From Natrarchaeobaculum sulfurireducens (GTDB lineage: Archaea; Halobacteriota; Halobacteria; Halobacteriales; Natrialbaceae): a stretch of DNA of 64,000 nt. The notes below the pieces were generated by a model. The model was not told where the DNA came from. It made no database searches and saw only the letters and a list, made by a program, of their open reading frames with translations. The stretch covers positions 1,178,001 through 1,242,000 of the forward strand of contig NZ_CP024047.1 in NCBI RefSeq assembly GCF_003430825.1, read 5' to 3'. The position numbers and the translations under genes are program-made. Positions 57,880-58,607 of the stretch are shown here, one piece after another (positions within the stretch are counted from its first letter, which is position 1; each line of letters opens with the position of its first letter).

Positions 57880-58062
57880 GGCCGACCGGTCGTACCCCGG
57901 GGAGAAAAACGTTGAGATGGCGGGTGATCGAGCTTCGGACTCGCTGTCGATCGTGTCGGATGAACGAACCGAGTCTGGGTACGTGAGCACGTCCCACTAC
58001 GGACTCGGAACGGAACGTTTTTTACTAGGCCACGGCAACGACTGAGTACGCCCTGACGGTGA

Positions 58063-58161
58063 GACGGACGCGGTCCGTCGTGAAGGGTATGTACGCTCCG
58101 TTGGGGAGACGGATGGGATCCGTCGACGCTCGGTGCGTGAACGAAGTGAACGCTCCGTTGG
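58063..58161 (+). repeat. Duplicated hairpin plus tRNA 5'-end unit before tRNA-Glu
   Basis: Two units each carry a 7-bp hairpin followed by ACGCTCCGTTGG. Hairpin 1 is GACGGAC-GCG-GTCCGTC (58063-58079) and hairpin 2 is GACGGAT-GGG-ATCCGTC (58108-58124); the C/G pair in one is T/A in the other, so pairing is kept. The 12-nt ending occurs at 58093-58104 and again at 58150-58161, where it is the first ten bases of the tRNA plus two. The layout indicates a tandem duplication that copied the tRNA 5' end. Confidence 0.6.
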
Positions 58162-58226
58162 TGTAGTCCGGCCAATCATTTCGGCCTTTCGAGCCGATGA
58201 CCTGGGTTCAAATCCCAGACGGAGCA
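58152..58226 (+). tRNA. tRNA-Glu (anticodon UUC)
   Basis: A 75-nt cloverleaf: acceptor GCTCCGT (58152-58158) pairs with ACGGAGC (58219-58225) and the discriminator is A. The anticodon stem TCGGC/GCCGA holds the loop CTTTCGA with anticodon TTC. The T arm is CTGGG-TTCAAAT-CCCAG. No CCA is encoded and no intron is seen. A TATA-like TTTTTTACTA at about 58018-58027 lies far upstream, which would give a precursor with a leader of about 100 nt containing the duplicated hairpins. Confidence 0.92.
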
Positions 58227-58607
58227 TTTCTGTGTCGAACAAATTCGTGAACCACAGTAATCCCATTCTGGATTTGAAGCACGGAACGCCGAGCGATAGC
58301 GAGGCGTTGCATCGGGTTCACTCCCAGACGAGCACTTTTCGAGCGGTTTACGACCAATGAGCGACGGCAGCACTCGATGCAATCTTCGAGCACGAAGACG
58401 GCCACGTTACGGGACAGAGAGTTCGTAATACGCTGTGTAGTTCACCAGATCGCAGCCCTGAAACCCGTCGATGACCGCCCCATCGACCGACGCGTTGGTC
58501 GCGCCTGCAAGTGAGGGAAACCTGATCGTTGTGGGCTTTGCCAGCTTATGATGACCGCGCCCACGAGCTGGGAAACGCTTAGGCGGCTGCAACCCCGAAT
58601 CCGTCGT
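58227..58607. other. Gene-free stretch downstream of tRNA-Glu with a partial tRNA 3'-end copy
   Basis: 381 nt without a supported gene. At 58314-58334 the sequence GGGTTCACTCCCAGACGAGCA repeats the T-loop to 3' end of the tRNA (58204-58226) with one base changed and small gaps, as expected of an old attachment-site or duplication scar. A minus-strand frame at 58407-58631 (74 codons) has a partly coding-like end but no known family, so it is not called. A CTTAGG box near 58579 may be the TATA element of the DUF5795 gene. Confidence 0.45.

Follow-up and report, generated by a model that had tools for sequence, protein, structure and literature searches.

Repeats around a haloarchaeal tRNA-Glu(UUC) gene belong to two families of hairpin-forming units at tRNA gene ends

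Integron attC sites are short, imperfectly palindromic sequences; folded as single strands, they imitate a double-stranded core site, and they are strand specific and occur in tandem arrays. In the pdif (Xer) system, a short module lies between inversely oriented recombinase core sites, and REP and REPIN sequences are short non-autonomous hairpins that act as single strands. Tyrosine recombinases target the T-loop and 3′ end of tRNA genes, and the pTN3-like ones target the 5′ half (PMC8371274). Haloquadratum carries short mobile repeats without a transposase (PATEs, SMRs, and MITEs); PATEs contain palindromes, and SMR-A is ~110 bp long, its mobilization being unexplained (PMC3119063).

We find that the repeats around the tRNA-Glu(UUC) gene of the source genome (G000) belong to two hairpin-forming families without annotation, which occupy the two ends of haloarchaeal tRNA genes. 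The 5′ unit measures ~57 nt and the 3′ unit ~110 nt (about 100 to 150 nt). Both families are built on one plan: read outward from the tRNA, hairpin A comes first, then the tRNA end as an inverted copy (B′), next a cassette that forms an inner hairpin, and finally the tRNA end as a direct copy (B). The order of parts in the 5′ unit thus mirrors that in the 3′ unit, although hairpin A is sense oriented in both. Hairpin A is a variable stem around GAAC..GTGA with a GA..GA loop able to form tandem G-A pairs, and the pair next to GA..GA covaries (AC..GT, GC..GC). The 3′ unit is bounded by copies of tRNA nt 54-73, and its inner cassette sits between inverted T-arm copies (CTGGGATTTGAA ... TTCAAATCCCAG). 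Copies of tRNA nt 1-9 bound the 5′ unit, with nt 10 being T as often as G. Among 84 distinct 3′ copies, identity ranges from 0.90 to 0.99 between nt 54 and the last base preceding the discriminator and is 0.80 at the discriminator itself, compared with 0.17-0.25 at 3-4 nt upstream and ~0.5 directly past the tRNA end. The identity block of nt 54-73 is thus sharp edged at both junctions, as for a tRNA-integrating element, and a 7-nt TTCAAAT is common to both junctions of the 3′ unit.

The resemblance to integron attC sites is a formal one, in that short imperfect palindromes, a single-strand core mimic, strand specificity, and tandem arrays recur here; unlike attC sites, the units target tRNA genes, have target-specific ends and the tRNA T-arm as their core, and contain no cassette genes. 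As in pdif, a short module lies between inverted cores, but the core is the tRNA T-arm and the module is non-coding and ~30-60 nt long. REPs and REPINs are likewise short, non-autonomous, single-strand hairpins, yet REPs lack tRNA-end copies, whereas the units described here stand at tRNA ends. With the tRNA elements of tyrosine recombinases the units share apparent insertion at tRNA genes, restoration of the tRNA by an identical end, 3′ identity that starts at the 7-nt T-loop, and the use of 3′ and 5′ targets, both known in archaea (PMC8371274). In contrast to those elements, they are 57-150 nt long, have no integrase gene (at 57-180 nt they are too short to encode one), contain an inverted second core copy and a structured interior, adjoin roughly half of one genome's tRNA genes, and form tandem repeats. 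PATEs, SMRs, and MITEs are similar in being short haloarchaeal repeats without a transposase, with palindromes or a length of ~110 bp, but none of them is described as tRNA-end specific (PMC3119063). PATEs and SMRs also lack target duplication, and SMR-A targets PATEs or IS605 elements (PMC3119063), whereas every unit counted here is bounded by tRNA-end copies, which distinguishes the units from IS200/IS605-type PATEs.

The window, that is, the whole 64,000-nt stretch of DNA analyzed, contains units at both ends of its tRNA-Glu(UUC) gene (58152..58226, plus strand; ARAGORN; Rfam RF00005, 59.4 bits), and all features given below lie on the same strand. A promoter-like TTTTTTACTAGG of the archaeal TATA-box type (58018..58029) is kept 5′ of tRNA-Glu in Natrialbaceae relatives, among which its distance to the gene differs, and would serve as the promoter of this gene. 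Two 5′ units stand head-to-tail between this box and the tRNA. The proximal one is intact (57 nt, 58095..58151), as judged by covariation and by its match to R2, a covariance model of the 5′ unit (G000:C3:1236095-1236161; E=8e-16, with the sequence itself in the R2 training set). It comprises a copy of tRNA nt 1-10 (58095-58104), the inner hairpin (58108-58124), the inverted end B′ CGGTGC (58131-58136), and hairpin A (58135-58153), which also covers the first 2 nt of the tRNA. The distal unit (58050..58094), recognized by folding and by alignment with the 5′ units of relatives, is decayed and shortened; it retains a degraded copy of tRNA nt 1-10 at 58050-58059 (GCCCTGACGG) and an inner hairpin at 58063-58079 with closing pairs CCCT/AGGG. 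Downstream of the tRNA lies a degenerate 3′ unit (58227..58334) that has kin stretches at other tRNAs and matches R1, a covariance model of the 3′ unit, from outside the training set (G000:C3:1236228-1236334; E=0.003). Hairpin A (58230-58257) and the inverted end B′ CTGGATTTGAA (58268-58278) are followed by the inner cassette (58279-58316) and by a degraded copy of tRNA nt 54-73, from the T-loop to the discriminator base (TTCACTCCCAGACGAGCA, 58317..58334). This copy, usually an exact 20-nt copy in relatives, has a local alignment score of 12.5, compared with ≤10.0 for all control tRNA ends aligned to that flank. The same-genus relative G003 carries other units at the same tRNA (L245).

A sequence-only reading of this locus had drawn attention to a 12-nt block repeated 57 bp apart at the tRNA. 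Indeed, ACGCTCCGTTGG occurs exactly at 58093-58104 and 58150-58161, with a spacing of 57 bp, and no third site turns up in the 64 kb even when one mismatch is allowed. Because shuffled sequence contains a mean of 0.71 such sites, and at least two in 14/100 shuffles, the repeat by itself carries little weight, and what matters is that it lies at the tRNA. A chance repeat was considered, since the 12-mer alone is only mildly unusual, and was rejected on the comparative data. The one-pair difference reported between the two hairpins is correct: 58063-58079 (GACGGAC/GTCCGTC) and 58108-58124 (GACGGAT/ATCCGTC) differ by a paired C-G to T-A change, which is a small instance of family-wide covariation. 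The degraded T-loop/3′-end copy noticed downstream is also real. The order proposed for the 5′ side, with each copy following a hairpin, has to be reversed; the unit runs from copy to hairpin and on to the tRNA, and each copy precedes its own hairpin.

Folding of the single sequence is unremarkable at this locus (RNA z of -1.2 to -2.3), and the evidence for structure is comparative. In 19 aligned 3′ units, 94% of cells are paired in the drawn structure, and changes on both sides of a pair number 42, compared with 13.2 in shuffled alignments (0/500 as high) and 0-7 in slid controls. In 17 aligned 5′ units, 12 pairs have both-side changes (4.6 shuffled, 0/500; slid, ≤5), as do 26 cells (6.4 shuffled, 0/500; slid, ≤6); the effect of phylogeny is removed by the slid controls and not by the shuffles. 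These values bear out the suggestion that the hairpin is kept as a structure. Rather than being unpaired or lost in relatives, the hairpins and the 3′ copy both persist across the Halobacteriales. The B′-B stem is 97.1% paired in A1, and this pairing would allow a folded single strand to recreate a double-stranded core, as in attC sites. The hairpin motif with G-A pairs has 176 matches on the sense strand and 25 on the other, and G-T pairs exceed A-C mismatches in the aligned stems of the two families (29:4 and 18:8). The folded sense strand therefore appears to be selected, with RNA and single-stranded DNA both fitting. A looser, unaligned count had given no such bias (14:16 and 64:55); the conclusion drawn from it, that absence of a G-U bias pointed to DNA, was withdrawn because that count mixes in spurious stems and the aligned stems are biased.

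The copies match their own tRNAs. In 28 of 28 5′ units, covering seven variants, the copy fits the neighboring tRNA uniquely, and even nt 7, which is unpaired with B′, tracks the tRNA; B′ is complementary to tRNA nt 1-6 at 6/6 positions in 18 of these units and at 5/6 in 10. The copy of the 3′ unit follows variant tRNA ends in L253, L254, L257, and L267, and the B′ of 3′ units is clearly tRNA specific for Ile, Met, Ala, Val, and Arg, several others being indistinguishable.

E-values of R1 and R2 are rough, and some matches are training sequences. In the source genome, R1 gives 22 full-length matches at E<0.1, each of which lies at the 3′ end of a tRNA or at a 3′-half copy of tRNA-Glu(CUC), with tandem 3′ units at His, Leu, and Gly tRNAs; away from tRNA 3′ ends it gives one partial match (E 0.07) and one weak match (E 0.7). 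Among 197 genomes of the phylum, R1 matches at E<0.001 occur in 30 of the 33 sampled Halobacteriales genomes and in 0 of 164 others. In 29 of 29 genomes, the best R1 locus either abuts the 3′ end of a tRNA or stands one to two units away from it; many isoacceptors are involved. R2 has matches in 65 of 146 Halobacteriales genomes, and each of the 30 loci retrieved stands upstream of tRNA-Glu or tRNA-Gly, either directly or at a distance of one unit. Without either model, ~21 of the 45 tRNA genes of the source genome (a count at one scoring threshold) have their own 3′ end repeated 70-180 nt downstream, with scores up to 22/22; on these flanks, lower scores are usual for the ends of other tRNAs. 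When GTDB genomes were scanned by pattern for exact Glu/Gly 3′-end pairs, 28 loci emerged, all in Halobacteria. In total we collected 110 units, a set that contains close relatives. Rfam 15 returned tRNA matches alone in the window and in six unit-bearing loci, with no known RNA family above gathering score, and we found no earlier description of the units in Rfam or the open-access literature searched.

Some related arrangements were seen in passing. The hairpin core CGAACGNAGTGAG occurs 18 times in the source genome, ~7 of them in tRNA units and the rest elsewhere, and the same string read backward occurs 0 times. Three equal-scoring R1 matches with 122-nt spacing lie beside tRNA-Pro and tRNA-Phe at G184:C1:63203-63566 and probably arose when a single 3′ unit was recently amplified in tandem. 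At G000:C3:2866975-2867188, tRNA-Gly(CCC) has a 5′ unit and precedes a degenerate tRNA-Gly that bears TTCATCGGAAG in place of its 5′ part; ARAGORN calls the latter "Glu(ctc)," and, as it is no unit copy, it was excluded from the count.

Close relatives differ in the presence of the 5′ unit. Filled and empty 5′ sites were found in four genera (L029/L009, L021/L007, L247/L018, and L243 and L231/L008), and likewise in Natrinema (L107/L105); a common upstream sequence enters the tRNA either directly or via a 51-58-nt 5′ unit, and gain or loss fits equally. Pairs of 3′ units from different genera share 97-99% of their sequence within flanks that are unalignable or ~76% identical (L229/L231, L087/L229), with L229/L231 reaching 99.1% between unalignable flanks. 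Inner cassettes are common to Glu and Gly units, and hairpin A is swapped against a constant cassette in L105/L107 and L088/L093. A 57-nt cassette of L261 sits in reverse orientation between inverted T-arm copies and is 96.5% identical to the inverse of the L008 cassette; L021 holds a second inverted cassette. In a Haloarcula plasmid tRNA-Cys gene, ~70 nt including the same cassette lie between nt 53 and 54, and the split tRNA is still recognized by Rfam.

That tRNA-Cys gene (L270 2416-2558, with the ~70 nt inside the T-loop) is part of a 22-tRNA array at 340-3490 of L270 (Haloarcula halophila plasmid NZ_CP119561.1, 237657-242703, reversed), which adjoins a gene for a TROVE-domain protein; at ~2820-2935 there seems to be at least one more tRNA-like stretch with T-loop hairpins. 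On the Natrinema thermotolerans plasmid CP031304.1 (L271 2300-2390), a tRNA-Glu-like gene not called by ARAGORN has a hairpin of ~35-40 nt inserted into the 5′ side of its anticodon stem and is followed by a 3′ unit. A blastn search of plasmid records gave three matches, each of them adjoining or inside a tRNA gene, and no free units, and one of phage records gave no unit. IMG/VR contained no exact tandem 3′ ends, tRNA-Glu 3′ end, or cassette 1; a loose hairpin pattern matched viral contigs, and the stem extended by ≥5 further pairs in none of those tested.

On balance, we favor the view that these are two related families of non-autonomous, non-coding mini-elements that insert at tRNA gene ends. 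Insertion would leave the tRNA intact, as the unit would carry or generate a copy of the tRNA end. The folded sense strand is probably the functional form, in which inverted and direct end copies would pair into a double-stranded mimic of the tRNA end, beside hairpins in which G-A pairs stand in tandem. Strand exchange at the T-arm (nt 54), presumably by a recombinase supplied in trans, would leave an abrupt start at the T-loop, a TTCAAAT common to both junctions, a second core in inverted form, and inverted cassettes, all as observed here. Such movement would formally resemble that of integron attC sites or of T-loop-type tRNA integrases; an equivalent step for the 5′ unit would be a guess. 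An integron-like variation on this theme is suggested by the additional inverted copy, with a folded single strand displaying a double-stranded copy of the target. It is a tentative extension that the units are order-wide minimal mobile elements of haloarchaea, folded single strands moving into tRNA genes in an integron-like manner without cassette genes and with tRNA genes as attachment sites; the double-stranded mimic would then be of the T-arm on the 3′ side and of the acceptor stem on the 5′ side. Against the mobile reading, no mobilizing enzyme, circle, or excision product was seen, and the filled and empty pairs are equally readable as deletion between direct repeats.

The sense-strand bias and the G-T excess also count against mobility, as both are expected from selection at the RNA level. 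They bring in the main rival, which is that leader and trailer hairpins mimic the tRNA's own acceptor stem (5′) or T-arm (3′) and benefit the host by steering pre-tRNA folding or processing by RNase P or tRNase Z. Such a role, which we regard as rather unlikely, would also fit the sense orientation of the hairpins, the strong covariation in both families, and the tRNA specificity of copy and inverted copy. It sits poorly with the more than half of tRNA genes in the source genome that have no detectable 3′ copy and with orthologous genes in one genus that lack units or have unrelated ones; nor does it account for inner cassettes that invert or for nt 7, which follows the tRNA despite being left unpaired by B′.

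The sequence-only reading had proposed that the copies are scars of a departed element. DNA targeted to tRNA genes is upheld, and scars of departed islands are not, since the copies are the ends of small units still in place that recur at more than 15 tRNA isoacceptors, also in tandem. Islands do use the same tRNAs, as with the tRNA-Glu(CUC) 3′-half copy 38 kb downstream in the source genome and the putative integrase-type elements seen by eye after tRNA-Glu in L030 and L242. For each copy to be an attR left by excision or decay of a large integrative element is nevertheless improbable, because independent decay would not leave the same interior sequence, whereas the spacing is near constant (~85-150 nt) and the interiors at many tRNAs are homologous members of a single structured family. 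Local duplication of tRNA ends by slippage or template switching, with hairpins perfected by quasi-palindrome correction and no dedicated mobility, would typically produce direct repeats, inverted repeats, and tandem units; we consider it very improbable, as local events would not make the shared interiors of families that span the order or place the same cassettes at different tRNAs and in different genera, with 97-99% identity inside unrelated flanks.

Two observations concern the islands themselves. A possible 38-kb island extends from tRNA-Glu(CUC) to its 3′-half copy outside the window (G000:C3:1121182-1159881), and a 3′ unit lies past its distal end, as though tRNA and unit had been parted by the island. 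In L030 and L242, a near-identical reading frame (MGKTDTIKDRRVDVYLDSL...) from ~50 nt past tRNA-Glu is probably part of an integrated element.

Units of these families stand beside tRNA genes in nearly every sampled haloarchaeal genome, and we found no name or annotation for them. If mobile, the units would rank with the smallest mobile DNA known and might reveal how a tRNA gene turns into a landing site; should they act as RNA, tRNA processing would gain a new layer. Either reading predicts exact junctions and matched tRNA-end copies.
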